Below are positions 2,646 through 20,305 of a stretch of DNA of 64,000 nt, piece after piece (the stretch's first letter is position 1; each line of letters starts with the position of its first letter). The position numbers and the translations under genes were made by a program. The notes beneath the pieces were generated by a model that was not told where the DNA came from, made no database searches, and was given only the letters and a program-made list of their open reading frames with translations. The stretch is from Nesterenkonia ebinurensis. GTDB taxonomy: Bacteria > Actinomycetota > Actinomycetes > Actinomycetales > Micrococcaceae. The DNA lies in contig NZ_VWNF01000011.1 in the NCBI RefSeq assembly GCF_008711175.1, positions 434,001 to 498,000 on the forward strand. Reading direction: 5' to 3'.

Positions 2646-4067
2646 CTAATCCCTCCGGCGGCGCAGCTGGAACTGAGCGGCGTGATGGTTCTCCGGCAGG
2701 TGGTCGCCGCGGCCGAACAGCTTGTTGCGCAGCGTGCCCGGGGCATACTCGGTCTTGTAGCGGCCCAGCTTCTGCAGCTCGGGCACCACGTACTCAACAA
2801 TGTCCTCAAAAGTGCCCGGGGTGATGTGGTAAGCCAGGTTGAAGCCATCCACGTCCGTCTCCTCCTGCCACTCGATCAGCTGCTGGGCGGCGGTGGGCCC
2901 GTCCCCGATGATGACTGGGCCGAAGCCGCCGACGCCGACCCACTCGGCCAGTTGCCGGACCGTCCATGCCTCATCTTCCCGGCCTGAGGCTTTCTGAAAG
3001 GTTTCGACGGTTGACTGGATGGCGTTGGACTCGACATCCCCGATGGGCTGGTCGAGGTCGAACTGAGAGAGGTCGATGCCCATCCAGCCGGACATCAGCA
3101 CCAGGCCTCCCTCGGGGTCGATGTACTTGGTCAGCTCTTCGTACTTGGCCTGGGCGACGTCGTGGTCTTCTCCGGTGACGATGGTCTGCATGGCGAAGAT
3201 GCGGACGTCGTAGGGGTCCCGGCCGGCGTCTGCGACTGCCTGGCGAATCTTCTGTACCGAGGCTTTGGCCAGCTCCTTGGTGGGCGGGTTGATGAACACA
3301 GCCTCAGCATGCTTTCCGGCGAAGGACCGGCCGCGGGTCGAGGCCCCTGCCTGGTAGATCACCGGCATGCGCTGCGGAGAGGGTTCGACCACGCCGATGC
3401 CGGGGGTCTTGAAAAACTCGCCGTGGTGCTCAATCCGGTGGATCTTGCTCGGATCGGTGAAGACGCCGGTCTCCTTGTCAGCGACCACAGCGTCGTCCTC
3501 CCAGGAGCCCTCCAGCAGTTTGTAGACCACATCCATGTACTCATCGGCGTGGTCGTAACGCTTGTCATGCTCCATCTGGTCGTCCTGGCCCATGTTCTGG
3601 GCGGCGGAGGGCAGATAGCCGGTCACCACGTTCCAGCCCACCCGACCGCCGGTGAGATGGTCAAGGGTGCCCAGCCGCCGAGAGAACGGATAAGGGTGCT
3701 CGTAGGCGGTGCCGGCGGTGATGCCGAAGCCGAGACTCTCGGTCACCGCAGCCATGGCTGAGACCAACAGGAACGGGTCCTGCAGCGGGATCTGCGCCCC
3801 AGAGCGCAGGGCGGCCTCCGGGTTTGCCCCGAACACATCGTAGGGACCGAGCACATCGGCGATGAACAGTCCGTCGAACAGGCCCTTCTCCAAGGTCTGG
3901 GCGATGTGGGTCCAGTAGCCGATGGTGTTGTAGTTCCGCGCCCGATCCTCCGGGTGACGCCACAGGCCGGGCGACTGGTGCACTACGCAGTTCATATCGA
4001 AAGCGTTGAACAGGATCTCACGCTTACCTGAGGAGGTGGTGGGTGGTGCTCCATGTGTACTAGTCAT
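2646..4067 (-). CDS. LLM-class flavin-dependent monooxygenase, DmoA/NtaA family
   Basis: 473 aa, full length for the NtaA/SnaA/DszA/DmoA family of FMNH2-dependent monooxygenases. Family landmarks include LFNAFDMNCVVHQSPGLWRH at the N-terminus, TLDHLTGGRVGWNVVTGYL, WEDDAVVADKETGVFTDP and the FMN-site SPQRMPVIYQAGAS. The N-terminal motif and the INxxxHxGxxFKxPG region are closest, from memory, to dimethyl sulfide monooxygenase DmoA, which oxidises DMS to methanethiol and formaldehyde with reduced flavin from a partner reductase. The start has an AAAGGA about 11 bases upstream. It is the last gene of a riboswitch-led operon with a substrate-binding protein and two permeases, and the flavin reductase at 15929 could serve it. 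The exact substrate is inferred, not proven. Confidence 0.8.
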   Translation of the reverse strand: MTSTHGAPPTTSSGKREILFNAFDMNCVVHQSPGLWRHPEDRARNYNTIGYWTHIAQTLEKGLFDGLFIADVLGPYDVFGANPEAALRSGAQIPLQDPFLLVSAMAAVTESLGFGITAGTAYEHPYPFSRRLGTLDHLTGGRVGWNVVTGYLPSAAQNMGQDDQMEHDKRYDHADEYMDVVYKLLEGSWEDDAVVADKETGVFTDPSKIHRIEHHGEFFKTPGIGVVEPSPQRMPVIYQAGASTRGRSFAGKHAEAVFINPPTKELAKASVQKIRQAVADAGRDPYDVRIFAMQTIVTGEDHDVAQAKYEELTKYIDPEGGLVLMSGWMGIDLSQFDLDQPIGDVESNAIQSTVETFQKASGREDEAWTVRQLAEWVGVGGFGPVIIGDGPTAAQQLIEWQEETDVDGFNLAYHITPGTFEDIVEYVVPELQKLGRYKTEYAPGTLRNKLFGRGDHLPENHHAAQFQLRRRRD

Positions 4068-4094
4068 CAGTTGGTTTTTCCTTTCAGGAACTCG

Positions 4095-4985
4095 TCATTG
4101 TTTCACCGCGCCGGTCGTCAGACCCTCAATGAGGTAGCGCTGCAGGAGGACGGCGATGGTGAAGACCGGGATAACCGCCATCAGGGACGATGCGGCGAGG
4201 CGGCCGAAGTCCTGGACCCGTTCACTGAGCATCCCCGCCAGCAGAACAGGGACGGTCTGAGTGTCCTGGCTCTGAGTCAGAAACGTCGCGAAGAGGAACT
4301 CGTTGTAGTTCAGGATGGCGACGATCACTCCTACGGCAATGAGCGCAGGGATCAGCATCGGCACGACGACGCGGGTCAGCAGCTGCCATTCATTTGCACC
4401 GTCAATGCGCCCAGCTTCCTCGACCTCGATGGGGATACGTCGGATGAACCCGTCGAGGAGCCATATCGCCACCGGAACATTGATGAGCGCATAGATAAGC
4501 GTGAGGCCCTCCAGGGTATTCGTCAGACCCAGGATGCGCAGCAGAGTGAGCAGCGGGATGATCGCCACAATCGGTGGAAGCAGCCATGGGCTGAGGATGA
4601 GTCCGCTCAGAGCTTTTCCTCCAGTGCGGTGCCGTGCAATGGTCCAAGCCCCGGGAAGCGCGAAGGTGAGCGTGAGAATCGCGCCACCGGCGGCCGCAAT
4701 CAGGGAGTTCAGAACCCCTTGCGGAATGGGTGAGTGCCATGCGTTGGCCCAGTTCCTGAAAGCCGGCTCCGTGGGGAGCAGAATCCCAGCGGCGATCTGC
4801 CCTTGAGTCATGAATGAGATCGACAGGAGGTACAGCAGCGGCACCAGTGCCGCGACGAGACTCAGCAGCACCCAGCCGCTGGCCAACAGGGAGGGTTTCT
4901 GCTGACAGGGCTGTGGAATCTCCTTGCGAAAGCGTCGGCTGCTCAGCGCCTTGGCAGCGTTGGTGGTGTTGATCGTACTAGTCAT
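4095..4985 (-). CDS. ABC transporter permease, MalG-like
   Basis: 296 aa inner-membrane permease with six predicted hydrophobic helices and the EAA loop EVEEAGRIDGANEWQLLTRV that docks the ATPase. This is the carbohydrate (CUT1, binding-protein-dependent) permease type. It overlaps the end of the MalF-like gene by 8 bases, so the pair is translationally coupled. It shares an operon with a binding protein and a DmoA-like monooxygenase under a SAM riboswitch, which suggests that the imported molecule contains sulfur. No ATPase is encoded in the operon; a shared MsmX/UgpC-type ATPase from elsewhere, or the SsuB-like ATPase at 14710, would have to energise it. Confidence 0.85.
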   Translation of the reverse strand: MTSTINTTNAAKALSSRRFRKEIPQPCQQKPSLLASGWVLLSLVAALVPLLYLLSISFMTQGQIAAGILLPTEPAFRNWANAWHSPIPQGVLNSLIAAAGGAILTLTFALPGAWTIARHRTGGKALSGLILSPWLLPPIVAIIPLLTLLRILGLTNTLEGLTLIYALINVPVAIWLLDGFIRRIPIEVEEAGRIDGANEWQLLTRVVVPMLIPALIAVGVIVAILNYNEFLFATFLTQSQDTQTVPVLLAGMLSERVQDFGRLAASSLMAVIPVFTIAVLLQRYLIEGLTTGAVKQ

Positions 4986-5937
4986 CGCGCAGCCTCTTGG
5001 TGATCAGGAAGATGGGAATGGTCACCACTGTTACGACCACAGCCAGCAGCAGTGTGATGGTCGCGGCTATGCCGACATCGAAGTTCTGCAGCGCCGAGCG
5101 CCAGATCAGGTAGGCGGGGACCTGCGTAGAGGAACCAGGGCCGCCTGAGGTCATGACGTAGACCAGGTCGAAGACTTTGAAAGCCAGAATCAGCCTGATG
5201 AGGAAGGCGGCGACGATCGTTCCTGCCACCATGGGCAAAGTGATGTGCCTGAACAGCTGGAAACCACTAGCCCCGTCGAGTTGAGCGGCTTCTGTGATTT
5301 CGGGGTCCTGACTGAGCAGGGCGGTGAAGACCAGCAGAACTACCAGCGGGGTCCACTCCCAAACGTCTGCCAGCGCCACCCCGAAGATCGCCCAGGTCGT
5401 GTCCGAGAGTATCGCGTAAGTGCCAGAGCCTGGAGTGAAGCGGCGGATCAAGGTGTCAAGAAGCCCCCCGGAGGGGCTGAAGATGAAGCTCCAGAGAATA
5501 CCGACGATCACCGGTGGAACGATCATAGGAAGCAGCAGAACAGTGCGTACGAAAGCACCGGCACGCAGCGACCGCCACAGAGCCAGCGCTGTCGCCGTGC
5601 CCAGCGCGGTGCTGGCGGCAGCGACGCCGAAAGCATAGCCGGTGCCCAATGTCAGCGAATTCTGCACGGCGGAGGAAGTCAGCGCTGTCTGGAAGTTCTC
5701 CGTGCCGACGAACTCCTGAAAGGGGTTACCCAGGCTGGACTGAGTGAGGGCTGCGGAGGCGATGAACACCAGAGGATAGGCGGCCAGGACCAGCAGCACC
5801 AGGACACTGGGCGCGATGAAGAGCCTGTGATGGAAGCGCTCGGAGATGCGCGGACGGCGCCGAAAGGTCTGAGATTTCTCAGGAGCCTCTGGCGGGGCAA
5901 CCGCAGCCTCAGCTCTCTGCAAGGTGTCAGTCGACAA
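4978..5937 (-). CDS. ABC transporter permease, MalF-like
   Basis: 319 aa with a TTG start at 5937. The frame stays open upstream, but that extension lies inside the preceding binding-protein gene; TTG at 5937 has GGGAGAG five bases before it and overlaps the binding-protein stop by 11 bases. A first helix at about residues 38-60 (APSVLVLLVLAAYPLVF) and later helices follow the MalF plan, and the EAA loop reads EITEAAQLDGASGFQLFRHI. It forms the heterodimeric channel with the MalG-like protein at 4095-4985. In substrate class it follows the sugar-type importers, although the SAM-riboswitch control points to an organosulfur ligand, possibly a sulfonated sugar or glycoside. Confidence 0.85.
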   Translation of the reverse strand: MSTDTLQRAEAAVAPPEAPEKSQTFRRRPRISERFHHRLFIAPSVLVLLVLAAYPLVFIASAALTQSSLGNPFQEFVGTENFQTALTSSAVQNSLTLGTGYAFGVAAASTALGTATALALWRSLRAGAFVRTVLLLPMIVPPVIVGILWSFIFSPSGGLLDTLIRRFTPGSGTYAILSDTTWAIFGVALADVWEWTPLVVLLVFTALLSQDPEITEAAQLDGASGFQLFRHITLPMVAGTIVAAFLIRLILAFKVFDLVYVMTSGGPGSSTQVPAYLIWRSALQNFDVGIAATITLLLAVVVTVVTIPIFLITKRLRDD

Positions 5938-7267
5938 GGAGTCTCTCCCATTCGGACTGAACAGTGTCCAACGTCTCCTGGGCGGAGTCCCGCTGACCGG
6001 AAAGGTAGGCGGCCAGCTCGTCGGTGAGGATCTGAGCGGCCTCAGTGGCGTTAGGACCAGTGGGCCAGGCCAGTGCACCGTGCAGAGTCGACTCGTTGAC
6101 CTCCTGCAACTCGGGGAAGTCCGAAGCGTACGTCTGGTCCTCCAAGGACGAGAGACGGTTGGGGTCGATACCCGTGGGCGGCAGAGCGGTCAGAAGAGCT
6201 GAGTTGACCTCAGTGGAGGCCGCCCAGGCGATGAACTGCTGAGCGAGGTCGGCGTTGTCGGTGTTTCCTGCCACGACCCAGCTGAATCCGGCGACGAGTG
6301 AGGCGCGTGGATCCTCGCCCTCGCTCTCGCGGGGGAGATAGGTGACGCCCCACTGGTCAACTACTTCAGAGCCTGAGTCAGGGTCCTGGGAGCGGACGCC
6401 GAGGTCCGTCCAGTTCTCGATGAACGCCACATTGCCTGCGAACCAGGCTGAGTTGCCGGCACCGAAGTCAGTTTCTGCAGGGGTCGGCAGGGCATAGTTC
6501 CAGATCTCTTCCAACGCTTCGAGGGAGGCCACTGCCTCGGGAGAGTTGATCACTGGATTTCCGTTCTCGTCGAGGAACTCGCCGCCGTAACCGGCAAGCC
6601 GGTTGGCGAAGCTGGCACCCAGAATCAGCGGGGACTGCTCGCCGAACACTGCTGCACCGTAGATCCCGTCAGAGCTTTCGTTCTCAGTGATGGTCTGCAC
6701 CTGTTGGGCGTACTCCTCCCAAGTTGCCGGCGGCTCATCAAACCCGTTGCGCTCGAGGATTTCGGTGTTGTAGAAGAGAGCATGGATATCACCGTCGAAA
6801 GGCAGCCCGTAGATCTCGTCGTCAACATAGGCGTAGGGCTCCCAGATCGTGGGGATGAAATCGTCGACGTCGATCTCGGGGGTGTCTTCTACGAACTCGG
6901 TGATCGGTTGGATGCTTCCGTCAGCTGCCAGATCGCCCAGCGAGACGTACCAAGGCGCTGAGACGTCGTAGACGTTGGCCCCGGACTGCTGGTCCAGGGT
7001 CAGCTGCGAGGCGATCTCGTCGTAGGGAACCGTGGTGACGTTGACGGTGACGCCGGTCTCCTCCTCGAACTGCTCAGCAAGCCAGTCACCGGCCCCCTCA
7101 TGTGAGGCGTTGAGCAGAATATTCAGCTCCTCGCCCTCGTGCTCTCCTTCGAAAGCATCTCCTTCTGCTCCCCCGCCGCCTGCACCGCAGGCTGACAGTG
7201 CCAGCGTCATGGCCGCGACCCCAGTCGCTGACCTGCTCGCTTTTCGCTGTGTGTTTGTGATGCTCAT
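5927..7267 (-). CDS. ABC transporter substrate-binding lipoprotein (family 1, sugar type)
   Basis: 446 aa with a lipoprotein signal: TLALSACG places the lipidated Cys at about residue 27, followed by a Gly/Glu-rich linker. The body is a family-1 extracellular solute-binding protein (LNILLNASHEGAGDWLAEQFEEETGVTVNV is split here only by description), the class that binds sugars, glycerol phosphate and related compounds. A GAGGAGT sits before the ATG. It heads the operon and is preceded by a SAM-I riboswitch about 108 bases upstream. The ligand is unknown; a sulfur-containing compound is inferred from the riboswitch and from the monooxygenase at the end of the operon. The sugar-type fold is unusual for a sulfur-starvation transporter, where TauA/SsuA folds are the rule. 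Confidence 0.85.
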   Translation of the reverse strand: MSITNTQRKASRSATGVAAMTLALSACGAGGGGAEGDAFEGEHEGEELNILLNASHEGAGDWLAEQFEEETGVTVNVTTVPYDEIASQLTLDQQSGANVYDVSAPWYVSLGDLAADGSIQPITEFVEDTPEIDVDDFIPTIWEPYAYVDDEIYGLPFDGDIHALFYNTEILERNGFDEPPATWEEYAQQVQTITENESSDGIYGAAVFGEQSPLILGASFANRLAGYGGEFLDENGNPVINSPEAVASLEALEEIWNYALPTPAETDFGAGNSAWFAGNVAFIENWTDLGVRSQDPDSGSEVVDQWGVTYLPRESEGEDPRASLVAGFSWVVAGNTDNADLAQQFIAWAASTEVNSALLTALPPTGIDPNRLSSLEDQTYASDFPELQEVNESTLHGALAWPTGPNATEAAQILTDELAAYLSGQRDSAQETLDTVQSEWERLLVD

Positions 7268-7375
7268 CGGCGGACTCCTCAGTCATTCAGTGCTCAGTCC
7301 CGGACCGACCGGGATCTGGATGATGGTGAAGTTCCCGCAGCGCATCAACAGTGCAGCACAGGGGTGTGTGGAACT

Positions 7376-7465
7376 CCCATCGGTTCTGGCGGTAGCACCT
7401 TTCACACATGGTGATGGTTGCTGCGGCGTCAACGATCCAGATCTCTCAGCCGCTCGAGATGGTTA
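7376..7465 (-). promoter_or_regulatory. SAM-I (S-box) riboswitch, copy A
   Basis: On the minus strand the conserved S-box blocks appear in order: P1 strand CCATC, GAGAGATCTGG, GCCGCAGCAACC, AGGTGCTACCGCCAG, and the closing P1 strand GATGG. The ligand is S-adenosylmethionine, and binding normally shuts expression off. Unlike the other three copies, the aptamer ends about 108 bases before the ATG at 7267. The leader between holds a TCCCGG/CCGGGA hairpin (7298-7314) that could act as the expression platform. It controls the sugar-type transporter and DmoA-like operon. Confidence 0.85.
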
Positions 7466-7531
7466 CTCGGACACTCTAGGCGGGTTGAGGTCCAAATGAA
7501 CATAACTGCGATACAGAACGTAACAATCGGC

Positions 7532-8980
7532 TCAGAAGCCCTTGGCTTTCAGAAACTCCTCAGCTGGGATTTCCGTCGCTTCAGCGGAGGAGTCCGTGAA
7601 CGCTCTGCAGTAGCCAGCCGCTGGGTGGGTCACTGGCAGTCGATCGGATCCAGTGAGTCTGCCACGAAGTGTCCTCTTCCCAGACTCCTCATCAGCAGAC
7701 CGGGCAAGACCGCGTCCACGGAGTTCGGGGAGCAGGTGCTGGATGAATTCGTCATAGGAGCCGGGGATCGTTGAGTTCATGACATTGATGCCGTCAATAC
7801 CAGCATCCTGCCAAGTCTCCAGTGCGTCGGCGATCTGCTCCGGCGTTCCGGTCACGCGCGTGGACTGTGCCCGGAATTGAGCCAGGTCTCGCAGCGTTAC
7901 TTTCCCGTTCGGGGCCATGCGTTTAATCTCCGAGAGATGCCCCTGTGCCTGCTCCGTATGCTCCAGCTCCTCCAAAGGAGTGTCGATGGGCAGGTGGCCG
8001 ACGTCGATCCCAAGACTTCCTGCAGTATGGGCGATCAGTGCGTGGTCGTCAATGGACTCATCGAGTTCCTTGGCTTTGGCCTGTGCTTCTTCCTCCGTTG
8101 ATCCAATGACGAAAGAAAGCCCTTGGATGAACTTCAGATCCTCAGGACCGCGGCCGAACTTTCGGGTTCTTTCTTTGACGTCGCGTGCATGCTCTGCAGC
8201 GATGTCTCTGCGCGGCGCCATCGAGAAAGTGGCCTCTGCATGCTGCGCGGCCACATCTCGACCCCTCTGCGAGGAACCTGCCTGGAAGAGGAATGGAGTA
8301 CGCTGCGGAGAGGGAGCCGAGAGGTGTGGGCCCTCGACTCGGTAGCGGTCACCCTGATGATGGATCTTCGCGACTTTCGCCGGATCAGCGTGCAGCCCTT
8401 GCCCACGATCATGCTGCCGGGTCTTGTCTTGAACGAGTGCATCGTCTTCCCATGATCCTTCCCACAGCTTGTAGCAGACGTCCAAGTACTCTTCCGCCCA
8501 GGAATAGCGGTCATCGTGCTTGGCAAGTCCTTCTCCACCGAAGTTTCGATGAGCATTCTCCTGGGAGTTGGTCACTACGTTCCAGCCGACCCGGCCTCCG
8601 GAGAGATGGTCAAGGGTAGAAATCTGCCGTGCGAAATTGAAAGGGTGGGCCTGGATGACCGAAGAGGTGAGGGCCAGGCCGATCCGGTCGGTCACAGCCG
8701 CGAGCGCCGAGATCAGCACGAGCGGATCATTGGAGGGAATCTGGAGCCCTTTGCGCACATGTGAGGCCCAACCGCCCTCGTGATCTCCGTAGAGTCCCAC
8801 CACATCTGCGAAAAAAGCAATGTCGAAGCCCGCAGCTTCAAGCTTCTGGACCAGGGAGACCCAATGGGGAAGCTCGTTGAACCGATGCTGCTCGGCATCT
8901 GGGCGCCGCCACGCACCACCGATGATATGGCTGGTGGTGTTCATCAGGAAAGCGGACAGGATAAGTGGTTGGCGGGACAA
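7532..8980 (-). CDS. LLM-class flavin-dependent monooxygenase, NtaA/SnaA/DszA family
   Basis: 482 aa. The start is TTG at 8980, supported by a near-perfect AAGGAGG five bases upstream that lies in the gap after the aldo-keto reductase. Family landmarks are STLDHLSGGRVGWNVVTNSQ, WEGSWEDDALVQDK and SPQRTPFLFQAGSSQRGRDV, which contribute to the FMN pocket. Relatives include the DszA sulfone monooxygenase and nitrilotriacetate monooxygenase; all need FMNH2 from a separate reductase. The sequence differs clearly from the DmoA-like copy at 2646 (SAFLMNTTSH at the N-terminus), so the substrate is likely different. It is the last gene of the riboswitch B operon. C-S bond cleavage of an organosulfur compound is inferred. 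Confidence 0.8.
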   Translation of the reverse strand: MSRQPLILSAFLMNTTSHIIGGAWRRPDAEQHRFNELPHWVSLVQKLEAAGFDIAFFADVVGLYGDHEGGWASHVRKGLQIPSNDPLVLISALAAVTDRIGLALTSSVIQAHPFNFARQISTLDHLSGGRVGWNVVTNSQENAHRNFGGEGLAKHDDRYSWAEEYLDVCYKLWEGSWEDDALVQDKTRQHDRGQGLHADPAKVAKIHHQGDRYRVEGPHLSAPSPQRTPFLFQAGSSQRGRDVAAQHAEATFSMAPRRDIAAEHARDVKERTRKFGRGPEDLKFIQGLSFVIGSTEEEAQAKAKELDESIDDHALIAHTAGSLGIDVGHLPIDTPLEELEHTEQAQGHLSEIKRMAPNGKVTLRDLAQFRAQSTRVTGTPEQIADALETWQDAGIDGINVMNSTIPGSYDEFIQHLLPELRGRGLARSADEESGKRTLRGRLTGSDRLPVTHPAAGYCRAFTDSSAEATEIPAEEFLKAKGF

Positions 8981-8990
8981 TCAAGCCTCC

Positions 8991-10061
8991 TTAAAGGTCG
9001 GATGAGACCGACCAGATGTTGATCCCTGACTCGCCCCGGGTGATCTGGTCTATGTCAGAGAGCTCTGCTTCTGTGAAACTGGTGTTGTTGACCGCGGCGA
9101 GGTTCTCGTCGAGCTGCGTGGTGGACGAGGCACCGAGCAGCACGGAGGTGACACCGCCCTCGCGGAGCAGCCAGGCGATGGCGAGCTGAGCCAGAGTCTG
9201 GCCTCGGTGCTCTGCGATCTCATGGAGCCGGCGCACGCGGTTGATGTTGTCATCGCCAAGATGGTGCTGGAACAGAGTGGAGCGGCTGCCGGCGGGTTGA
9301 GCTTTGGGATCCTCCAGGTATTTGTTGGTGAGCAGCCCCTGCGCCAAGGGAGTGAAAGCAATCGAACCCAGTCCGGTCGCCTGCAGAGTGTCCAGCAGTC
9401 CGTCTTCCACCCACCGGTTGAGCAGTGAATAGGCGGGCTGGTGGATGACCAGCGGTGTGCCCAGATGGTCAGCGATCTCTGCCGTCGCGCGGGTGCGTTC
9501 CGCTGAGTAAGACGAGATGCCCACATACAGCGCCTTGCCCTGCCGGACGGCGGTGTCGAGCGCACCGATGGTCTCCTCAAGAGGGGTATCCGGATCCACG
9601 CGGTGGGAGTAGAAGATGTCGACATAGTCGGTGCCAAGCCGTTGCAGAGACTCTTCAAGGCTGGTTAGCAGGTACTTCCGGGACCCGAAGTTCCCGTACG
9701 GACCTCGCCACTGGTCCCAGCCCGCCTTGGACGAGATGATCAGCTCGTTGCGATAGGGTTTGAAGTCCTTGGCGTATATCCGGCCGAAGTTCTCCTCTGC
9801 GGCCCCGTAGGGCGGGCCGTAGTTGTTCGCCAGGTCGAAGTGGGTGATTCCAGAGTCGAAAGCGTGCCGGATGATCTCCCGCTGGGCGGCGAACGGAGTG
9901 GTGTCGCCGAAGTTCCACCACAGTCCCAGTGAGATCGGGGGAAGCAGAAGGCCGGTTCTGCCCACACGGCGATACTCGAACTGTTCGTAACGAGTGTCAG
10001 CTGCTGCGTAGGGCGTGTTGACCTCGGTCCCGGATTGGGAGACATCGACGGAGTGGCTCAT
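8991..10061 (-). CDS. Aldo/keto reductase, YghZ/Kvbeta type
   Basis: 356 aa from ATG 10061, chosen because GGAAGGA lies 9 bases upstream and an earlier ATG would run into the preceding gene. The protein is a TIM-barrel NAD(P)H oxidoreductase; FDLANNYGPPYGAAEENFG contains the catalytic Asp/Tyr pair and IISSKAGWDQWRGPYG the catalytic Lys region of the YghZ (AKR14)/potassium-channel beta branch. Close relatives reduce methylglyoxal and other aldehydes. In this operon it follows two DszC/SfnB-like oxygenases and precedes a DszA-like monooxygenase. It may therefore reduce the aldehyde or ketone left after oxidative C-S cleavage; this role is inferred from context only. Confidence 0.85.
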   Translation of the reverse strand: MSHSVDVSQSGTEVNTPYAAADTRYEQFEYRRVGRTGLLLPPISLGLWWNFGDTTPFAAQREIIRHAFDSGITHFDLANNYGPPYGAAEENFGRIYAKDFKPYRNELIISSKAGWDQWRGPYGNFGSRKYLLTSLEESLQRLGTDYVDIFYSHRVDPDTPLEETIGALDTAVRQGKALYVGISSYSAERTRATAEIADHLGTPLVIHQPAYSLLNRWVEDGLLDTLQATGLGSIAFTPLAQGLLTNKYLEDPKAQPAGSRSTLFQHHLGDDNINRVRRLHEIAEHRGQTLAQLAIAWLLREGGVTSVLLGASSTTQLDENLAAVNNTSFTEAELSDIDQITRGESGINIWSVSSDL

Positions 10062-10092
10062 GAACGATATTCCTTCCAGGGTGCTAGCTTTC

Positions 10093-12530: not shown

Positions 12531-12537
12531 TGATCCT

Positions 12538-13577: not shown

Positions 13578-14644
13578 CAGTCCTCGTCCTCTTGGATATT
13601 GGCCTCATCGGCACCGCCCTCGGAGCCTTCAGCAGTGGTCGCCTCACGGTTCTCAGCGAACTCCGGGGAGAAGAGAGACTCCAGCGCCTCATCAATACTG
13701 TCCTGGGAGGAGACATCCCCGGTGTCGATGAAGATCGGCCCGATCTCGCTCAGCACCTGGTACTGGGCATCACCCGGCACCGGGTCCACCTCGAAGTTCG
13801 AACGCTCCTGGATCACTGTCTCAGCGACCTCCAGATCGATGTTTCCGTACTCGGCCAGGATCTCTGCGGTGCCCTCGGGGTTCTCCAGCGCCCACTCACG
13901 TGCCTGTTCGTAGACATTGACCACGATCTGGGCAACATCGGGGTGGTTCTCGATGAAGTCCTCGGTCGCGTTGATCACACTATAGGTGTTGAAGTCCACA
14001 TTGCGGTAGAACAGCTCAGCTCCATCGGCTTCGGCAGAAGCCATAATCGGATCCAGTCCGGCCCAGGCGACCACGTCATCATTGGCCAGAGCGGCACGGC
14101 CGTCAGCATGCTGAAGGTTCTGAACCTCCACAGCTGAGGGATCCTGGCCGGCTTCCTGCAGGGCCTGGATGAGGAAGAAGTAGGGGTCTGTGCCCAGCGT
14201 GGCAGCCACCGACGCGCCCTCGAGATCCTCGACGGAACTCACCCCTGAGTCAGGGTTGGCGACCAGGGCCGCCCATTCGGGCTGGTTCTCAATGAGGATG
14301 GTGTGGATCGGTGAGCCGTTGGACCGGGCCAACAACGCAGCTGAGCCGGCTGTGGAGCCGACATGGATCGCCTCAGCCCTGAGTTTCTCATTGGCGTCGT
14401 TGGAGCCCTGGGACTGGATCCATTCCACCTCGGTGCCGAGTTCTTCAAGCTCCTCTTCGAGCCAGCCGTGTTCCAGGATGATCAGGCTCAGCGGATTGTA
14501 GGTGGCGAAGTCGATGGTCAGAGTCTCAAGCTCTCCGTCGGAGCCTGAGCCGGGGCCCTCACCCTCCACACATGCGCTGGCCATCAGCAGCGCTGCGGCT
14601 GCGGAGGCGGCGATGATGGGCTGGGCAAGCCGTGAGCTGGACAT
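13577..14644 (-). CDS. ssuA: Aliphatic sulfonate-type substrate-binding lipoprotein (SsuA-like)
   Basis: 355 aa from ATG 14644 (AGAAAGG six bases upstream). The signal peptide ends in MASACVEG, giving a lipidated Cys at about residue 25. The body follows the SsuA/NMT1 fold: TIDFATYNPLSLIILEHGWL, then EKLRAEAIHVGSTAGSAALL and the domain-crossing VAATLGTDPYFFLIQALQEAG. The C-terminus ends in an acidic tail (EGGADEANIQEDED). It captures the ligand outside the membrane and hands it to the SsuC-like permease encoded directly downstream. A small GCCCG/CGGGC hairpin (14686-14703) separates it from the ATPase gene. The ligand is inferred to be an organosulfur compound from riboswitch control. Confidence 0.85.
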   Translation of the reverse strand: MSSSRLAQPIIAASAAAALLMASACVEGEGPGSGSDGELETLTIDFATYNPLSLIILEHGWLEEELEELGTEVEWIQSQGSNDANEKLRAEAIHVGSTAGSAALLARSNGSPIHTILIENQPEWAALVANPDSGVSSVEDLEGASVAATLGTDPYFFLIQALQEAGQDPSAVEVQNLQHADGRAALANDDVVAWAGLDPIMASAEADGAELFYRNVDFNTYSVINATEDFIENHPDVAQIVVNVYEQAREWALENPEGTAEILAEYGNIDLEVAETVIQERSNFEVDPVPGDAQYQVLSEIGPIFIDTGDVSSQDSIDEALESLFSPEFAENREATTAEGSEGGADEANIQEDED

Positions 14645-14709
14645 AGAGGGCCTTTCTGGAATGGGAGAAGGGTGAAAGTAAAGGGGCCCGCTCATCAACG
14701 GGCGGCAAT

Positions 14710-15549
14710 TCAGTGGGAGTCCACGCCGAGACCGACGTAGAGCTCTCCGCGCAGTCTGGCAAGCTCTGCTGAGGCACGGTCCCGGGGACGTTCGCCCGGT
14801 ACGGTCAGCAGCTGCTTGACGCTGGCGCCTTCGGCGGAGGATGAGCCGCCGTGACCCAGCAGCAGGATCCGATCGGCCAGCTGCAGAGCCTCGTCGACGT
14901 CGTGGGTCACCAGCAGCACCGTGGTGCCGGTCTGAGCGTGGATGTCCAGCAGCAGGTCCTGCATCTTCAGCCGGGTCAGCGCATCGAGCGCGCCGAAGGG
15001 CTCGTCGAGCAGCAGCACACCGGGACGCCGGGCCAGGGCGCGGGCCAGCGAGGCCCGCTGCGCCATTCCGCCGGATATTTCCCGGGGGCGAAGGTGGGCG
15101 CGCTCGGCCAGTCCCACCAGCTTCAGCAGTTCATCGACCCGGGCTCTGCCAGCCTCTTTGCTGAGTGTGCGCGGCAGTCCCAACTCAATGTTCTTGCGCA
15201 CTGAGCGCCAGGGCAGCAGGCGCGGCTCCTGGAACCCGACCGCGGTGCGCTCATCGTAGGGTGTCACCGAGCTGTCCCCGATCAGGATTTCGCCGGTGAA
15301 ACCGCTGTCCAGACCGCCGACGGCGCGCAGCAGGGTGGATTTTCCGCAGCCGGAAGCACCGACGATGGCTACCACCTCGCCAGGTGTGACCTTCAGGCTG
15401 ACATCGCGTAGCACGGTGCGGGCGTCGAAGCTCCGGCCCACATTCCTGAAGGTGACGGTCAGCGAGCCGTCGGGCACCGCCCGCTCCTCTGGCGCGTCAT
15501 CCAGAGCTGCAGGTGCCTTGACCGGCTCAAGCACGGGTGCAGAAGTCAT
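14710..15549 (-). CDS. ssuB: ABC transporter ATP-binding protein, SsuB-like
   Basis: 279 aa. Walker A GASGCGKST lies at residues 64-72, the signature ISGGMAQRASLARAL follows, Walker B is GVLLLDEPFGALD, and the switch His is in LLVTHDVDEAL. This is the SsuB/TauB group of importer ATPases. An N-terminal extension of about 28 residues precedes the first strand. The ATG at 15549 is 16 bases below the P1 helix of SAM riboswitch C, with GTGAG and GGGAG as alternative ribosome binding sites. It leads the SsuBAC operon. As the only transporter ATPase in the sulfur region, it might also energise the ATPase-less sugar-type permeases at 4095-5937, but that pairing would be unusual. Confidence 0.88.
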   Translation of the reverse strand: MTSAPVLEPVKAPAALDDAPEERAVPDGSLTVTFRNVGRSFDARTVLRDVSLKVTPGEVVAIVGASGCGKSTLLRAVGGLDSGFTGEILIGDSSVTPYDERTAVGFQEPRLLPWRSVRKNIELGLPRTLSKEAGRARVDELLKLVGLAERAHLRPREISGGMAQRASLARALARRPGVLLLDEPFGALDALTRLKMQDLLLDIHAQTGTTVLLVTHDVDEALQLADRILLLGHGGSSSAEGASVKQLLTVPGERPRDRASAELARLRGELYVGLGVDSH

Positions 15550-15565
15550 CGAGAAATACTCACTC

Positions 15566-15651
15566 CCATCGGTTCTGGCGTTAGCACCTTGCCTGATAGG
15601 CCGGTTGCTGCGACGTCCTCGGGCCAGATCCCTCAGTCGCTCTTGATGGTT
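15566..15651 (-). promoter_or_regulatory. SAM-I (S-box) riboswitch, copy C
   Basis: Nearly identical to copy B: CCATCAAGAGCGACTGAGGG, ATCTGGCCCGAGGACG, TCGCAGCAACCGGCC, AAGGTGCTAACGCCAG, then GATGG. The GGGAG after the aptamer (15563-15567) shares two bases with P1 and may be part of the ribosome binding site of the SsuB-like gene. The similarity to copy B extends through the variable P3/P4 parts, which suggests that one arose by duplication. Confidence 0.92.
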
Positions 15652-15668
15652 GGTTGTTGCGAGAGCCT

Positions 15669-15699
15669 ACTGTACGCGGTGAACATATCTATCCGTCAA
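15669..15699 (-). promoter_or_regulatory. Candidate sigma-70-type promoter for the SsuBAC operon
   Basis: On the minus strand TTGACG (15694-15699) and TACAGT (15669-15674) are separated by 19 bases. Transcription would start about 10 bases before the 5' edge of riboswitch C, as expected. The spacer is longer than ideal. Confidence 0.45.
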
Positions 15700-15778
15700 A
15701 CCGTGGTCACAAAACGTCACGCAGCCCGGGCCGGCACGGCGGGGACGGTGCGGAATGTCTCGAAATATGACACGGGCT

Positions 15779-15808
15779 TTGCTGCCTCGCCCAGCGGCGT
15801 CGTACGGT
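15779..15808 (+). promoter_or_regulatory. Candidate sigma-70-type promoter for the flavin reductase-metY operon
   Basis: TTGCTG (15779-15784) and TACGGT (15803-15808) are separated by 18 bases. The predicted start, about 7 bases further on, coincides with the first base of riboswitch D, which supports the assignment. Confidence 0.45.
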
Positions 15809-15816
15809 GGAGGGGT

Positions 15817-15920
15817 CCATCCCGAGCGGCCGAGAGATCTGGCTCTGTGACGCCGCAGCAACCCGGGAGGCTCGGTGTACGCCGGGCCCACGCAGGGTGC
15901 TACCGCCAGGATCGATGGGA
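15817..15920 (+). promoter_or_regulatory. SAM-I (S-box) riboswitch, copy D
   Basis: Plus-strand blocks: CCATCCCGAGCGG, CGAGAGATCTGGCTC, GACGCCGCAGCAACCCGG, CAGGGTGCTACCGCCAGG, and GATGG closing P1 (15914-15918). The ribosome binding site GGGAGAG (15917-15923) begins inside the P1 3' strand, so SAM binding should block initiation at ATG 15929 directly. It controls the flavin reductase, acyl-CoA synthetase, metY and CoA-binding protein operon. Confidence 0.9.
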
Positions 15921-15928
15921 GAGTCTCT

Positions 15929-16447
15929 ATGAGCTTGTCCGCCGCTACCCTTGCACGGCCCGATGCCCCTGCCGACCCGCTGGCCCTGCGTGCCGCATTC
16001 GCCCAGTTCCCCCAGGGCGTGGTGGTGGTCGGCGCTGAGATCGACGGCGCCCCCGAGGGACTGGTGGCCTCCACCTTCACCGTCGGCGTCTCGCTGGACC
16101 CGCCGCTGGTGACCTTCGCCGTCCAGCACTCCTCCAAGACCTGGCCCCGGCTGCGCGAGAGCGCCACCCGCCTGGGGGTCTCGGTGCTGGGCGCTGATCA
16201 GCAGGGGCTCTGCCGGCAGATCGCTTCCAAGGATCGGGCGCAGCGGTTCACCGGGGTGGAGTACACCGCCGACGGCGGCGGGGCCTTGACCATTGCTCAC
16301 TCTCCTCTGCAGCTGGGCACCTGCATCTACAGCCAATTCACCGCTGGGGATCACGATGTGGTGGTCTTGGAAGTTCTGGACCTGAACGTGGATGAGACCC
16401 GCACCGGTCTGGTCTTCCACCAGAGCGCGTTCAAACCGCTGCCGTGA
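15929..16447 (+). CDS. Flavin reductase (HpaC/DszD-like, flavin_reduct domain)
   Basis: 172 aa from ATG 15929. An upstream in-frame ATG exists, but it lies inside the SAM riboswitch, and GGGAGAG serves 15929. The protein is a split-barrel flavin reductase: LRAAFAQFPQGVVVVGAEI, LVASTFTVGVSLDPPLVTFAV and a late HDVVVLEVLDL match the family that reduces FMN with NAD(P)H and releases it to partner monooxygenases. It is the only such reductase in the window and can be expected to feed the LLM and DszC-like enzymes at 2646, 7532, 10093 and 11328. Its stop overlaps the GTG of the next gene (GTGA). Confidence 0.88.
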   Translation: MSLSAATLARPDAPADPLALRAAFAQFPQGVVVVGAEIDGAPEGLVASTFTVGVSLDPPLVTFAVQHSSKTWPRLRESATRLGVSVLGADQQGLCRQIASKDRAQRFTGVEYTADGGGALTIAHSPLQLGTCIYSQFTAGDHDVVVLEVLDLNVDETRTGLVFHQSAFKPLP

Positions 16448-18492
16448 CCGCTGATGTGCACCGCTGGGCCGAGCCCCGGACTGAAGAGGAACGACTGCGC
16501 TTCTGGGAGCGCGCCGCCGAGTTGCTCAGCTGGGAGGCCCCCTGGCACACCACGCACACCTGGACTCCACCAGATCCCGAGACTCGCCGCGGCCCGGAGA
16601 TCCGCTGGTTTGAGGGCGGGCGGCTCAATGCCGCAGTCAACTGTGTGGATCGGCACGTGGCCGCCGGACTCGGCGATCGCGTGGCCCTGCACTTTGAGGG
16701 GGAACCCGGTGACCGAGCCGATATCACCTACGAGCAGCTGCAGGACAGGGTGAACCAGGCCGCCAACGCCTTAGAAGCTTTGGGCCTCACCTCCGGAGAC
16801 CGTGTGGTGATCTACCTGCCGGTGCTGGTGGAGACCATTGTGATCACCCTGGCCTGCGCGCGCATCGGGGCAGTCCACCAACTGGTCTTCGGCGGGTTCT
16901 CCGCTGAGGCGCTGCGCTTCCGGGTCCAGGACACCGGGACCAAACTGGTGGTCACCACCGATGGTCAGTACCGGCGGGGAAAGGCCGTGCCGGTGAAGGA
17001 GAACGTCGATACCGCAGTCGCCGGGCTCACCACCGATGCCGGCGGCACCGTCGAGCACGTGCTGGTGATCCGGCGGACCGGCTCTGAGATCCCGTGGACC
17101 GGCAGGGATCTCAACGGGGACGGCTTAGGCCGCGACCTGTGGTGGCATGAGGTGGTGGAGACCGCTTCCACCGAGCATGCCGCGGAGTTCTTCGACGCCG
17201 AGACCCCACTGTTCATCATGTACACCTCCGGGACCACCGGGAAGCCGAAGGGTCTGGTCCACACCACCGGCGGCTACCTCACCGGCGCCCTGTTCAGCTA
17301 CCTGCGGCTCTTCGCCCACCCGGACCCTGAGCAGCGCAAGCAGGACGTGCACTGGTGCACCGCGGACCTGGCCTGGGTCACCGCGCACACCTATGAGATA
17401 TACGGACCGCTGGCCGCCGGGGCCACCCAGGTGATCTACGAGGGCGTGCCCAATGTCCCACACCCGGGCCGCCACTTAGAGATCATCGCCCGCCATCGGG
17501 TGACCAGCTACTACACCGCCCCCACCCTGGTCCGCTCCCTGATGGGCTGGTTCCCTGACGGTGTGCCCGCCGACTATGACCTCAGCTCGGTCCGGTTGGC
17601 CGGCACCGTGGGCGAGGCGATCAACCCGGAGGCGGCCCGCTGGCTGCGCACTCAGATCGGCAGAGACCGCCACGATGAGCACGGCAGACCCGGCCTGCCC
17701 CTGGTGGATACCTGGTGGCAGTCCGAATCCGGCTCCACGGTGCTCTCCCCACGCCCGGAGTCCCCCGGGTTCAAACCCGGCAGCGTGGCACGTGAGCTGC
17801 CGGGCTGGCGGGCTGACGTCGTCGACGATCAGGGCCGCCCCACTTCCCCCGGTGTGCAGGGCAATGTGGTCATCACCCGCCCCGGTCCTTCGATGGCCCG
17901 GACAGTGTGGGGGAATCCGGAACGCTATTACAGCAGCTACTGGGAGAAGTACGCGCATGCTGAGAACGGCCGCGGCTGGTTCTTGGCCGGAGACGCCGGA
18001 CAGTACGACCCCGAGGGGGACATCTGGATTCTGGGCCGGATCGATGATGCGATCAACATCTCCGGGCATCTGCTCTCCACCATCGAGATCGAATCCGCCC
18101 TGGTCAGCCACCCGGATGTAGTCGAGGCCGGGGTCGCCCCAGTCTATGACCCCACCACCGGGCATGCCGCGGCCGCATTCGTGGTGCTCACTGCTGCCGC
18201 CCGCGAGCGCATCCCACACCACAGCGCCGCCGAGTCTGATCTGATCAGCCGACTGCGGGCCCACGTGGGGCAGGTGATCGGTCCGGTGGCCAAACCGCGT
18301 ACCGTCATCCCGGTCCCCGAGGTGCCCAAGACCAGGTCTGGGAAGATCATGCGCCGGCTGCTGACCCAGCTCCACGACGGTCAGCGCCTGGGCGACACCA
18401 CGAGCCTGCAGAACGAACCCTGCGTGCCGAAGATCCAACAAATCTGTCAGACTCTAGGCACAGCACCTGTGAAGGAGAACGCACCACAATGA
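16444..18492 (+). CDS. acs: Acetyl-CoA synthetase-like AMP-forming ligase
   Basis: 682 aa with GTG start overlapping the flavin reductase stop. The ANL-superfamily motifs are complete: YTSGTTGKPKG at about residue 260, VDTWWQSESGS carrying the Trp that limits the acyl pocket to small acids, the ILGRIDDAINISGHLLS hinge, and RSGKIMRR with the acetylatable Lys at about 634. Acetate or another short acid is activated to its CoA ester. The canonical TETGG after the Trp is SESGS here, so substrate preference may be shifted. In a SAM-riboswitch operon next to metY it might provide acetyl-CoA for O-acetylhomoserine, or salvage the carbon acid left after desulfurisation. Both are inferences. Confidence 0.85.
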   Translation: MTADVHRWAEPRTEEERLRFWERAAELLSWEAPWHTTHTWTPPDPETRRGPEIRWFEGGRLNAAVNCVDRHVAAGLGDRVALHFEGEPGDRADITYEQLQDRVNQAANALEALGLTSGDRVVIYLPVLVETIVITLACARIGAVHQLVFGGFSAEALRFRVQDTGTKLVVTTDGQYRRGKAVPVKENVDTAVAGLTTDAGGTVEHVLVIRRTGSEIPWTGRDLNGDGLGRDLWWHEVVETASTEHAAEFFDAETPLFIMYTSGTTGKPKGLVHTTGGYLTGALFSYLRLFAHPDPEQRKQDVHWCTADLAWVTAHTYEIYGPLAAGATQVIYEGVPNVPHPGRHLEIIARHRVTSYYTAPTLVRSLMGWFPDGVPADYDLSSVRLAGTVGEAINPEAARWLRTQIGRDRHDEHGRPGLPLVDTWWQSESGSTVLSPRPESPGFKPGSVARELPGWRADVVDDQGRPTSPGVQGNVVITRPGPSMARTVWGNPERYYSSYWEKYAHAENGRGWFLAGDAGQYDPEGDIWILGRIDDAINISGHLLSTIEIESALVSHPDVVEAGVAPVYDPTTGHAAAAFVVLTAAARERIPHHSAAESDLISRLRAHVGQVIGPVAKPRTVIPVPEVPKTRSGKIMRRLLTQLHDGQRLGDTTSLQNEPCVPKIQQICQTLGTAPVKENAPQ

Positions 18493-19778
18493 CCACTGAT
18501 CGGCAGTTCGGCTTCCGTACCCGGGCCCTGCACGCCGGGGCTATCCCGGATGCTACCTACGGCACCCGGGCGGTGCCGATCCACCAGTCCACCAGCTTCG
18601 TGTTTCAAGACACCGACGACGCCGCCAACCTCTTTGCCCTGCAGAAGTTCGGAAATATCTACTCCCGTATCGGCAACCCCACAGTGGCCGCCCTGGAGGA
18701 GCGGATCGCCTCCCTGGAGGGCGGCATCGGAGCAGTGGCCACCGCCTCCGGGATGAGCGCGGAGTTCCTGGTCTTCGCCGCCCTGTGCCAGCAGGGCGAC
18801 CATATCGTGGCCAGCTCCAAGCTCTACGGCGGCACGGTCACCCAGCTGGATGTCTCACTGCGCCGGTTCGGCATCGAGACCACTTTTGTGAACTCAGACG
18901 AGGCCGCGGACTTCAAGGCAGCACTTCAGGAGAACACCAAACTGATCTTCACCGAGGTGGTCTCCAACCCAGCCAGCGATATCGTGGACCTCCCAGGTCT
19001 GGCTGAAGTGGCCCATGCGCACAGCATCCCGCTGGTGGTCGATTCCACTCTGACTACCCCGTTCCTGTTCCGTCCGCTGGAGCACGGGGCTGATATCGTG
19101 ACCCATTCGGTGACCAAGTTCCTGGGCGGACACGGGACCACTCTGGGCGGCGTCGTGGTCGAATCGGGGAAGTTCCCCTGGGACAACGGCCGGTTCCCGC
19201 AGATGACCGAGCATGTGGAGTCCTACGGGGGGCTGTCCTGGTGGGGTAATTTTGCCGAGTACGGGTTCCTGACCAAGCTACGCGCTGAGCAGCTGCGCGA
19301 CTTCGGGCCGAGCCTGACCCCGCAGGCGGCCTTCCAGCTGATCCAGGGCATTGAGACTCTGCCGCAACGGATGGTCGAGCATGTGACCAATGCGCAGAAG
19401 GTGGCGCAGTGGCTTGAGGCTGATCCGCGCGTGGACTATGTGAACTTTTCCGGACTGCCCAGCCACCGACACCATGCCCGGGCCAAGGAGCTTCTGCCCG
19501 AGGGAGTGAGCTCGGTGTTCAGCTTCGGGATCTCCGGCGGCCGGGAGAATGGGGTCCGGTTCATCGAGTCTCTGCAGCTGGCTAGCCATCTGGCCAATGT
19601 GGGCGATGCCCGCACCCTGATCCTGCACCCGGCCTCCACCACCCACCAGCAGCTGAATGCTGAGCAGCTGGTGGCCGCAGGCGTACCTGATGACCTGATC
19701 AGGATTTCTGTGGGCCTGGAAGATGTTGAAGACATCATCTGGGACCTGGACCAAGCCCTTGAGGAGGCAACCCGATGA
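18489..19778 (+). CDS. metY: O-acetylhomoserine aminocarboxypropyltransferase (sulfhydrylase)
   Basis: 429 aa, ATGA overlap with the preceding gene and a good AAGGAG upstream. It is a Cys/Met-metabolism PLP enzyme (fold type I) with [21 protein letters not shown] as the N-terminal cofactor region and the PLP Lys at about residue 210 in [10 protein letters not shown]. The long insertions and total length of about 430 aa fit MetY/Met17, which joins O-acetylhomoserine with sulfide to form homocysteine, rather than the shorter MetB or MetZ. It sits in a SAM-riboswitch operon, so it is the point at which scavenged sulfide would enter methionine and SAM synthesis. It is coupled to a CoA-binding protein downstream (ATGA). 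Confidence 0.92.
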
Positions 19779-20305
19779 GCACCGCGACACCCACCACCTC
19801 AGAACACCCCAATGGGCTCTGGGATGAGCCCGGCCCGGCCCGCCGGCTGCAGCTGCTGCGCTCCGCGGAGTCAGTGGCGATCATCGGGATGAGCGATAAG
19901 CCCTCCCGGGCCAGCTACTTTGTGGCCACCTATTTGAAGTCTGACTCCAGCTACCGGCAGTACTTTGTGAACCCCCGCCTGGTGGGCAAGACTGTGCTGG
20001 GCGAGCCTGGCTATGCCACGCTGAAGGATCTTCCGGAGGCCCCTGACATTGTGGTGGCCTTCCGCAAACCTGCCGATCTTCCTGACCTGGCCCGGGAGGC
20101 CGCTGAGGCGGGTGCGAAGACCCTGTGGGTGCAGCTGGGCATCCACTCGGAGGAGGCCATGCAGGTGGCCACCGATCTGGGGCTGAATGCAGTGCAGAAC
20201 CGGTGCATCAAGATCGAGCACGGCCGCTTCCACGGCAATCTGCACCTGGGTGGCTTTGATACCGGCGTCATCTCCGCCAAGCGCCAGCTGCGGGACTCTA
20301 CTTAG
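19775..20305 (+). CDS. CoA-binding domain protein (YccU type)
   Basis: 176 aa, starting within the metY stop (ATGA). The Rossmann-like CoA-binding domain shows VAIIGMSDKPSRASYFVATY near residue 30, PDIVVAFRKPADLP, and VQNRCIKIEHGRFHG with a conserved Cys near the end. YccU-family proteins bind CoA but their function is not settled. The tight coupling to metY suggests a role in the sulfhydrylation step, for example as a sulfur or thiol carrier using the conserved Cys, but this is speculative. Last gene of the riboswitch D operon. Confidence 0.85.
   Translation: MSTATPTTSEHPNGLWDEPGPARRLQLLRSAESVAIIGMSDKPSRASYFVATYLKSDSSYRQYFVNPRLVGKTVLGEPGYATLKDLPEAPDIVVAFRKPADLPDLAREAAEAGAKTLWVQLGIHSEEAMQVATDLGLNAVQNRCIKIEHGRFHGNLHLGGFDTGVISAKRQLRDST

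Follow-up and report, generated by a model that had tools for sequence, protein, structure and literature searches.

Four SAM-I riboswitches lead the importer, oxygenase and MetY units of a putative thiol-yielding organosulfur island in Nesterenkonia ebinurensis

In Corynebacterium glutamicum, the ssu and seuABC genes encode luciferase-like monooxygenases (LLM) and DszC-like oxygenases together with an Ssu transporter, are controlled by protein regulators and depend on sulfite reductase. The sulfo-SMO pathway for sulfoquinovose employs a CUT1 importer, an LLM monooxygenase, an aldo-keto reductase and a flavin reductase, and releases sulfite. The locus analyzed here is a block of 15 genes at positions 2646-20305 of a 64,000-nucleotide stretch of the Nesterenkonia ebinurensis genome (the whole stretch is called the window), and each of its four units is led by an S-adenosylmethionine (SAM) riboswitch of the SAM-I class, or S-box. 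The block shares with the C. glutamicum genes the combination of actinobacterial LLM and DszC-like oxygenases with an Ssu-type transporter, which is Ssu-like here. It differs from sulfo-SMO in its binding protein, which scores 47 bits against SmoF versus 88 bits against a trehalose/maltose-binding protein. The best overall explanation, which we place slightly above an even chance, is a SAM-gated island in which sulfur is freed as a thiol and captured by MetY. The name seuA also appears for Brevibacterium in the accessible text of PMC6706770.

Three further systems resemble parts of the block. Candidatus Pelagibacter ubique, as described in the accessible part of PMC5069961, has no assimilatory sulfate reduction, carries SAM riboswitches on metY, bhmT and mmuM, and uses MetY to join methanethiol to O-acetylhomoserine. 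SAM riboswitches control metY there, as they are predicted to do here; those of Pelagibacter occlude the ribosome-binding site, and many lie in a hypervariable genome region. The difference is that Pelagibacter places SAM-V and SAM-II on methionine-forming steps, whereas the present block places SAM-I on importers and oxygenases. Assimilation of dimethyl sulfide (DMS) by Acinetobacter baylyi, as far as it is set out in the accessible text of PMC13352529, also draws on several two-component flavin monooxygenases and one flavin reductase for sulfur supply, but proceeds to sulfite through an SfnG-type enzyme and SsuD and then to sulfite reduction, none of which was found here. Hyphomicrobium DmoAB differs in that DmoA and its reductase DmoB are neighbors in a methylotroph, whereas here the reductase is HsaB/HpaC-like and stands in another unit.

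A covariance-model search of the window (cmscan, Rfam 15) returned four RF00162 matches that span the full model (positions 1-108) and exceed the gathering score of 44.4 (E 5.8e-13 to 7.3e-8). S1 (7374-7465, minus strand, 53.1 bits) leads the CUT1/LLM_A unit, S2 (12535-12623, minus, 62.9 bits) the DszC2-DszC1-aldo-keto reductase-LLM_B unit, S3 (15563-15652, minus, 65.4 bits) the SsuBAC-like unit and S4 (15814-15921, plus, 47.8 bits) the flavin reductase-Acs-MetY-CoA-binding unit. A sequence-only reading of this DNA had placed four SAM-I aptamers before four different units, and its coordinates proved correct within 3 nt. These four S-boxes, contained within 8.55 kb, are the only SAM-I matches at E ≤ 0.001 in the whole 3.74 Mb genome of this member of the Micrococcaceae (50 contigs, 98.65% complete), and no other SAM riboswitch class was matched by cmscan in the window.

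Covariation was used as structural evidence. The set comprised 23 S-boxes, the four of the window and 19 from the family, with a structure of P1-P4 and the pseudoknot written by hand. Paired positions were complementary in 97.0% of 597 cells, and sliding the partners by 1-3 columns lowered this value to 28-53%. Eight pairs had changed on both sides, including one in the pseudoknot and one in P1. None of 500 shuffles reached the observed values on four of five measures, and 93 of 500 did so on the fifth. Folding energy was tried and set aside as not diagnostic (leaders versus shuffles, z -0.23 to +0.58). S2 and S3 are identical at 83 of 90 aptamer positions and at 47 of 80 upstream positions (12535-12703 versus 15563-15732), with an alignment score of 14 versus a shuffled maximum of -7; the pair represents two copies of one cassette that includes 80 nt of DNA upstream of the aptamer. 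The motif GTGACGTTTTGTGA upstream of both was considered as a shared protein-binding site and dropped as evidence for a regulator, since it has three matches in the window against 2.45 expected and the cassette duplication explains it better.

Pfam and NCBIfam models define the content of the four units. The S1 unit (minus strand) encodes a CUT1-type solute-binding lipoprotein (5927-7267; PF01547/PF13416), a CUT1-type ABC permease (4978-5937; PF00528; the open reading frame (ORF) extends to 6078 and the start was set at TTG 5937 with the frame checked), a MalG-like CUT1-type permease (4095-4985; PF00528; MalG model 105 bits, below the cut-off of 261) and LLM_A, a flavin mononucleotide (FMN)-dependent monooxygenase of the NtaA/DmoA family (2646-4067; TIGR03860 543 bits, cut-off 280; 526 bits to 6ak1); it contains no ATPase. 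The S2 unit (minus strand) begins with DszC2, an SfnB/MsuC-like group D flavin monooxygenase (11328-12530; SfnB model 256 bits; MsuC 6u76 134 bits), whose stop codon overlaps the start of DszC1 in an ATGA. DszC1 (10093-11331) is a group D flavin monooxygenase of the acyl-CoA-dehydrogenase fold (8cda 255 bits, MsuC 233 bits). Both proteins miss the curated SfnB and DszC cut-offs (TIGR04022, 430.9; NF043015, 850), with 256 and 112 bits for DszC2 and 234 and 249 bits for DszC1, and by these scores they appear to be relatives of SfnB and DszC and not curated members. The unit continues with an aldo-keto reductase of the AKR14/YghZ type (8991-10061; PF00248; 4aub 417 bits; ORF from 10142, start set at ATG 10061, frame checked) and with LLM_B, a second NtaA/DmoA-family FMN monooxygenase (7532-8980; TIGR03860 484 bits; 6lr1 419, LadA 348 and DmoA 340 bits).

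The S3 unit (minus strand) encodes an SsuB-like ATPase (14710-15549; PF00005; NF008420 223 bits, below the cut-off of 395), an SsuA-family substrate-binding protein (13577-14698; TIGR01728 179 bits, above the cut-off of 163.5) and an SsuC-like permease (12696-13577; NF008470 179 bits, below the cut-off of 347). The S4 unit (plus strand) encodes an HsaB/HpaC-like flavin reductase (15929-16447; PF01613; HsaB model 77 bits, below the cut-off of 230), an acetate-CoA ligase family enzyme, Acs (16444-18492; NF001208 752 bits, cut-off 657; TIGR02188 707.5 bits, just under 725), the O-acetylhomoserine sulfhydrylase MetY (18489-19778; TIGR01326 583.9 bits, cut-off 495.1) and a CoA-binding-domain protein (19775-20305; PF13380), and all three of its junctions are stop/start codon overlaps. 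The families named from the letters alone, namely organosulfur-type oxygenases, a flavin reductase, an Ssu-like transporter and MetY, are thus borne out, as is the claim that the block encodes no protein regulator: no DNA-binding family occurs among the Pfam matches (E ≤ 0.001) of the 15 proteins. The description of the module as self-contained does not hold, because MetX lies on another contig, the CUT1 unit is without an ATPase and the genome yielded no sulfite reductase.

Direct translation attenuation by SAM-I, with the ribosome-binding site within the 3' side of P1, has been described for Actinobacteria (Barrick and Breaker 2007, accessible text of PMC2258182), and the mechanism of S2-S4 is the same and is not new; a four-gate organosulfur island does not appear in that text. 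In all three, the 3' strand of P1 (GATGG) continues directly into the Shine-Dalgarno (SD) sequence, which overlaps it as GGAGG in S2 and GGGAG in S3 and S4. The start codons follow 7 nt past GATGG in S2 (ATG 12530), 16 nt in S3 (ATG 15549) and 10 nt in S4 (ATG 15929). S1 does not have this geometry; a 106 nt leader separates its aptamer from the start codon, and no long ORF starts directly after P1. When SAM is plentiful, SAM-bound aptamers would keep helix P1 closed, and translation of the units behind S2, S3 and S4 would be blocked because the 3' strand of P1 is the beginning of the SD sequence; when SAM falls, P1 would open and the unit would be translated. S1 is assumed to act in the same direction. 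The aptamers, the P1-SD geometry, the gene families and the failure to find named families are results of computation, and the SAM response of S1-S4 is predicted from them.

The direct geometry recurs among relatives. A start codon 3-18 nt past GATGG that opens at least 130 codons was present at 39 of 43 pattern-found S-boxes in 14 loci (the window and 13 others); for random positions within these loci the count was 1509 of 11200. This set omits the near-duplicates L037, L040, L185 and L189-L191 and the S-boxes that the text pattern does not catch. Among cmscan-found S-boxes of the window and ten named Nesterenkonia and Garicola loci, 38 of 42 have the same P1-SD geometry; the S-boxes gained by cmscan of the ten loci include a fifth one in L041 and those leading DszC2 in L034, L042 and L049. 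The two sets overlap and some of their loci are closely related. The four exceptions are the same in both sets. One is S1 of the window, and the others are the S-boxes ahead of LLM_B in L042 (18579-18699), L049 (18589-18708) and L034 (13957-14076); in none of the four does a long ORF follow P1 directly. The leaders of these exceptions are approximately 110-210 nt long (106 nt for S1) and carry short ORFs between aptamer and gene, which are possibly leader peptides. A 29-codon ORF beginning (V/M)NISA occupies the expected gene start in L042 and L049, and the S1 leader contains candidate ORFs, one of which ends just ahead of the SD sequence of the binding protein. In Garicola, the S-box that corresponds in position to S1 and precedes the CUT1 binding protein (L041 15126-15210) is direct, with a start 9 nt past GATGG. 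For 24 of 43 S-boxes, against 1.7 expected, there is a -10-like hexamer 4-34 nt ahead of P1, the hexamer having been picked after the sequences were viewed. K-mer enrichment in these 14 loci mixes promoters with related loci and was set aside. A terminator platform was rejected: 2000-21300 contains 11 terminator-like sites versus 8.7 expected, and none lies between an aptamer and its gene.

S1 begins 66 nt past the LLM_B stop codon and S2 begins 72 nt past the SsuC stop codon; therefore S3, S2 and S1 could share one long transcript. Garicola koreensis (L041) has three of its five S-boxes inside gene runs, between flavin reductase and Acs (5844-5940), between SsuC and DszC2 (9870-9976, 12 nt past the SsuC stop codon) and between LLM_B and the CUT1 binding protein (15126-15210). 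These internal S-boxes suggest separate translational gates on one transcript, and it is as translational gates that their placement inside gene runs makes sense.

SAM control of organosulfur genes is a family habit in the Micrococcaceae. RF00162 is present in 162 of 197 family genomes, that of N. ebinurensis included, and in 27 of 32 genera. The nearest named relatives of DszC2 are Nesterenkonia proteins (66-75% identity) and one from Garicola (73%), and in these loci the gene order is shuffled, yet the leading genes are preceded by S-boxes. The gene-content comparison covered loci L034-L073 of 80, and the leader comparison covered L034-L059 and the window. The first identified gene within 330 nt was recorded for 89 S-boxes, which comprise 29 loci and 60 chosen among the best matches and are biased to high scores; covariance-model coordinates were used for this count, the text pattern having missed genuine S-boxes in 22 of the 89 loci. 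MetN-like genes came first in 17, LLM_A and SsuB in 13 each, DszC2 in 6, Acs in 5, MetY in 4 and LLM_B in 2, at 23% to 77% identity to the window proteins, and none of the listed genes was present in the remaining 29. Of the two genes assigned to LLM_B, the one in L158 (23%) probably encodes an SfnG-type enzyme. Six representatives of the 29 were compared with NCBIfam models; SfnG is above cut-off in L182 (597 bits), and the other matches, all sub-threshold, are to MetF, MetQ, an MFS transporter, a peptide/nickel-type binding protein and a MetE-like protein. The habit is apparent because homologues of block genes lead 43 of the 89 S-boxes, and S-box control of such oxygenases, which the sequence-only reading had called less usual, is usual in this family. 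No report of family-wide SAM control of organosulfur genes was found among open literature titles and abstract beginnings, a body of text from which subscription papers are mostly absent.

The switch class is not constant. In seven of seven Arthrobacter loci (L044-L048, L052 and L053), cmscan places a SAM-IV riboswitch (RF00634, 90.7-99.7 bits, cut-off 38) ahead of the DszC1-DszC2 pair, at about 8294-8627 on the plus strand and 26-80 nt before the first long start, and the same loci have SAM-I at LLM_A or MetN-like genes. The two genera thus retain SAM control of this pair but differ in the class of switch, SAM-I in Nesterenkonia and SAM-IV in Arthrobacter. No SAM riboswitch was found by cmscan in 11 loci of other groups (L050, L051, L054-L059, L063, L066 and L067). 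Three of these, L051, L055 and L063 (Mycetocola and an actinobacterial metagenome-assembled genome), hold CUT1 genes, LLM_A, DszC1 and DszC2 together, joined by the aldo-keto reductase in L051 and L063, and this grouping suggests one shared substrate.

The genome was searched for the enzymes of a sulfite route. The siroheme sulfite/nitrite reductase domain (PF01077, NIR_SIR) has no match in the N. ebinurensis genome at E ≤ 0.001; of the 14 control genomes 11 have a match, and of the 197 genomes of the family 134 do. CysH was not found, the sole PAPS_reduct match in the genome being CysD. SsuD (TIGR03565) and SfnG (TIGR04021) were not found either; their best genome matches, at 75.3 bits against a cut-off of 518.2 and 65.9 bits against 382.95, are the block's own LLM_B and LLM_A, respectively. 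The proposal that C-S oxidation of sulfonates or sulfones feeds MetY loses its SsuD and SfnG by these scores, and a route through sulfite is doubtful because sulfite needs to be reduced before MetY can use it and no siroheme sulfite reductase was found. CysD itself is kept (contig C13, 20067-20750), and the gene beside it is presumably CysQ; the two may be retained as a relic or for making 3'-phosphoadenosine 5'-phosphosulfate for sulfation.

Across 30 genomes of the genus, an assimilatory-type reductase is full in 11 and in pieces in one that is 62% complete; nine have only a longer, weaker-scoring type, which is taken to be NirB-like, and nine have no NIR_SIR match. An LLM_A orthologue (at least 85% identity) is present in 15 of the 18 genomes without an assimilatory-type sulfite reductase and in 9 of the 12 with one. 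The module is kept where sulfite appears useless, and it does not depend on the absence of sulfite reductase, since it is kept in genomes with the enzyme too. A family-wide association between S-boxes and sulfite reductase loss (84 of the 115 genomes that have an assimilatory-type hit carry an S-box, as do 78 of the 82 that have none; Fisher p 4.5e-5) was given no weight because it is uncorrected for ancestry, NirB-like-only genomes are counted as without, and no such dependence appears within the genus.

The chemistry of the block is read from its oxygenases. LLM_A and the dimethyl-sulfide monooxygenase DmoA (6ak1) are identical at 232 of 450 positions (51.6%), and LLM_A retains 17 of the 20 binding residues listed for DmoA in the accessible text of PMC9259527, with S137G, G231T and L367F differing. 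By sequence, DmoA appears to be the closest solved relative of LLM_A. Hyphomicrobium DmoA converts DMS to methanethiol and formaldehyde according to the accessible text of PMC13352529, although a figure legend there names dimethyl sulfoxide (DMSO). Homologues of DszC2 (41%) and LLM_A (53%) adjoin in an A. baylyi genome (L084), and the pair thus occurs outside Actinobacteria.

In the explanation that we favor, the units would supply an SsuABC-like importer, a CUT1 system that borrows its ATPase from elsewhere, one flavin reductase, four flavin-dependent oxygenases, an aldo-keto reductase, an acetate-CoA ligase and MetY. LLM_A, and perhaps LLM_B, would hydroxylate a thioether carbon in the manner of DmoA to yield a thiol. 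MetY would join this thiol to O-acetylhomoserine, the likely donor, made by the MetX encoded elsewhere in the genome (L117, beside a second MetY); methanethiol would give methionine and sulfide would give homocysteine. Acs may supply acetyl-CoA for MetX or may activate a sulfur-containing acid. Thiol release is preferred over sulfite at about an even chance; the failure to find sulfite reductase, CysH, SsuD and SfnG makes it the most likely outcome.

The fate of homocysteine bears on this route. Searches of the genome with PF01717 and PF02574 recovered neither a full MetE nor a protein of MetH size. PF01717 gives only a 411-residue protein (L122 880-2115) at 36.6 bits, far below methionine-synthase cut-offs, and PF02574 gives only a 349-residue homocysteine-methyltransferase-like protein (L123 1387-2436), for which betaine- and MetH-type models are below cut-off. 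The 411-residue protein is 59% identical to a protein downstream of an S-box in L151, whose relatives (64-96%) adjoin an S-box in L138, L140, L142 and L152. Because its relatives adjoin S-boxes in other genera, the 411-residue protein may be an uncharacterized type of methionine synthase. Another relative (58%), in L023, lies on the strand opposite to an S-box. The absence of MetE and MetH is no proof of a methanethiol route, as methionine could still be made from homocysteine.

Several observations weigh against thiol release into MetY. DszC1 and DszC2 belong to the group D fold, which oxidizes sulfur and not carbon. In A. baylyi, three group D enzymes form DMSO and dimethyl sulfone along a route with sulfite as its end point, and nine TIM-barrel enzymes all failed to give DMSO from DMS in a screen that did not measure methanethiol (accessible text of PMC13352529); in the present genome, a route of that type would lead nowhere beyond sulfite. 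The model of the SsuA subfamily takes its name from aliphatic sulfonates, an S-box leads SfnG in the relative L182, and the presence of a CUT1 importer hints that the substrate is larger and perhaps resembles a sugar. The second MetY and MetX have no S-box in the whole-genome RF00162 search, genomes that have sulfite reductase retain the module as well, and a genome in 50 contigs at 98.65% completeness may have genes in its gaps.

An alternative with the same logic is thiol release from a larger thioether such as an S-alkylcysteine, S-succinocysteine or an S-glycoside, which would enter through the CUT1 or Ssu-like system and be cleaved by LLM_A or LLM_B. YtnJ/CmoJ and YxeK cleave such larger thioethers, and LLM_A and LLM_B both match YtnJ at 234-252 bits. 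DMS is volatile and would give the cell no use for two importers, the CUT1 binding protein is similar to proteins that bind sugars, and CUT1 genes stand with LLM_A, DszC1 and DszC2 in L051, L055 and L063. We consider this substrate possible but somewhat unlikely, the best solved match of LLM_A being DmoA with most listed binding residues kept. A sulfo-SMO reading of the CUT1, LLM and aldo-keto reductase genes was rejected because similarity to SmoF is weak (47 bits) and no SsuD-type enzyme was found. It is highly improbable that the oxygenases serve carbon or xenobiotic use of the LadA, hexachlorobenzene or nitrilotriacetate type, with S-boxes that reflect only MetY or SAM demand. The best solved match of LLM_B is indeed a hexachlorobenzene dehalogenase, followed by LadA, but homologues of LLM_A, LLM_B and the DszC proteins directly follow SAM riboswitches in other family members, where SAM riboswitches also lead MetN-, MetF- and MetQ-like genes.

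Import of sulfonates, sulfones or DMS, with oxidation to sulfite, reduction to sulfide and homocysteine formation by MetY, is consistent with an SsuA-family protein above cut-off, with DszC/SfnB/MsuC-like enzymes, with the one shared flavin reductase of the A. baylyi pathway (accessible text of PMC13352529) and with the S-box-led SfnG of L182 at 597 bits. The N. ebinurensis genome itself yielded no SfnG, SsuD or sulfite reductase, and among the 30 genus genomes nine are without a NIR_SIR match and nine more have only the presumed NirB-like type, which makes this route quite unlikely. Loss of sulfite reductase, CysH, SsuD and SfnG in assembly gaps would restore a conventional sulfur metabolism. 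The assembly is incomplete, and an assimilatory-type reductase is full in 11 of the 30 genomes and in pieces in one more; yet four separate families would all need to have been missed, and the 100% complete congener G012 and the 99% complete G066, G107 and G138 are likewise without a NIR_SIR match, so such a loss is improbable. A broader form of the thiol-capture explanation, offered tentatively and at clearly less than an even chance, concerns Micrococcaceae that lack sulfite reduction: their sulfur economy would do without sulfite and be gated by SAM cassettes that can replace one another. Thioethers from the environment would pass directly to thiols and, by way of MetY, to methionine, and SAM would in this way control the supply of its own precursor with no protein regulator. 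Promoter-plus-aptamer cassettes would have been copied before, and even between, the genes of polycistronic units; SAM-I and SAM-IV would be exchangeable with the logic kept, and each cassette would gate its own stretch of transcript because it acts on translation.

Two features of the window lie outside the block. Two adjoining genes at 676-2591 partly match cyanophycin synthetase, and the first of them is kept beside the block in Garicola (L041). A 489-residue ORF at 22821-24290 has no Pfam or NCBIfam match at E 0.001.

The switch mechanism is already known; the regulon content, the exchange of switch class and the apparent sulfite-free setting are what set this case apart. They point to a SAM-riboswitch regulon that extends across the family and covers oxygenases and importers for organosulfur compounds, with two classes of switch serving one function on related genes. 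S-boxes that are duplicated or internal to gene runs provide a natural setting in which to ask whether translational riboswitches act as separate gates on one transcript. The locus bears on whether DmoA-like enzymes outside methylotrophs feed methionine synthesis through a thiol, which is relevant to the turnover of DMS and other thioethers, and it raises the prospect that Gram-positive bacteria may live without sulfite reduction, as SAR11 does.

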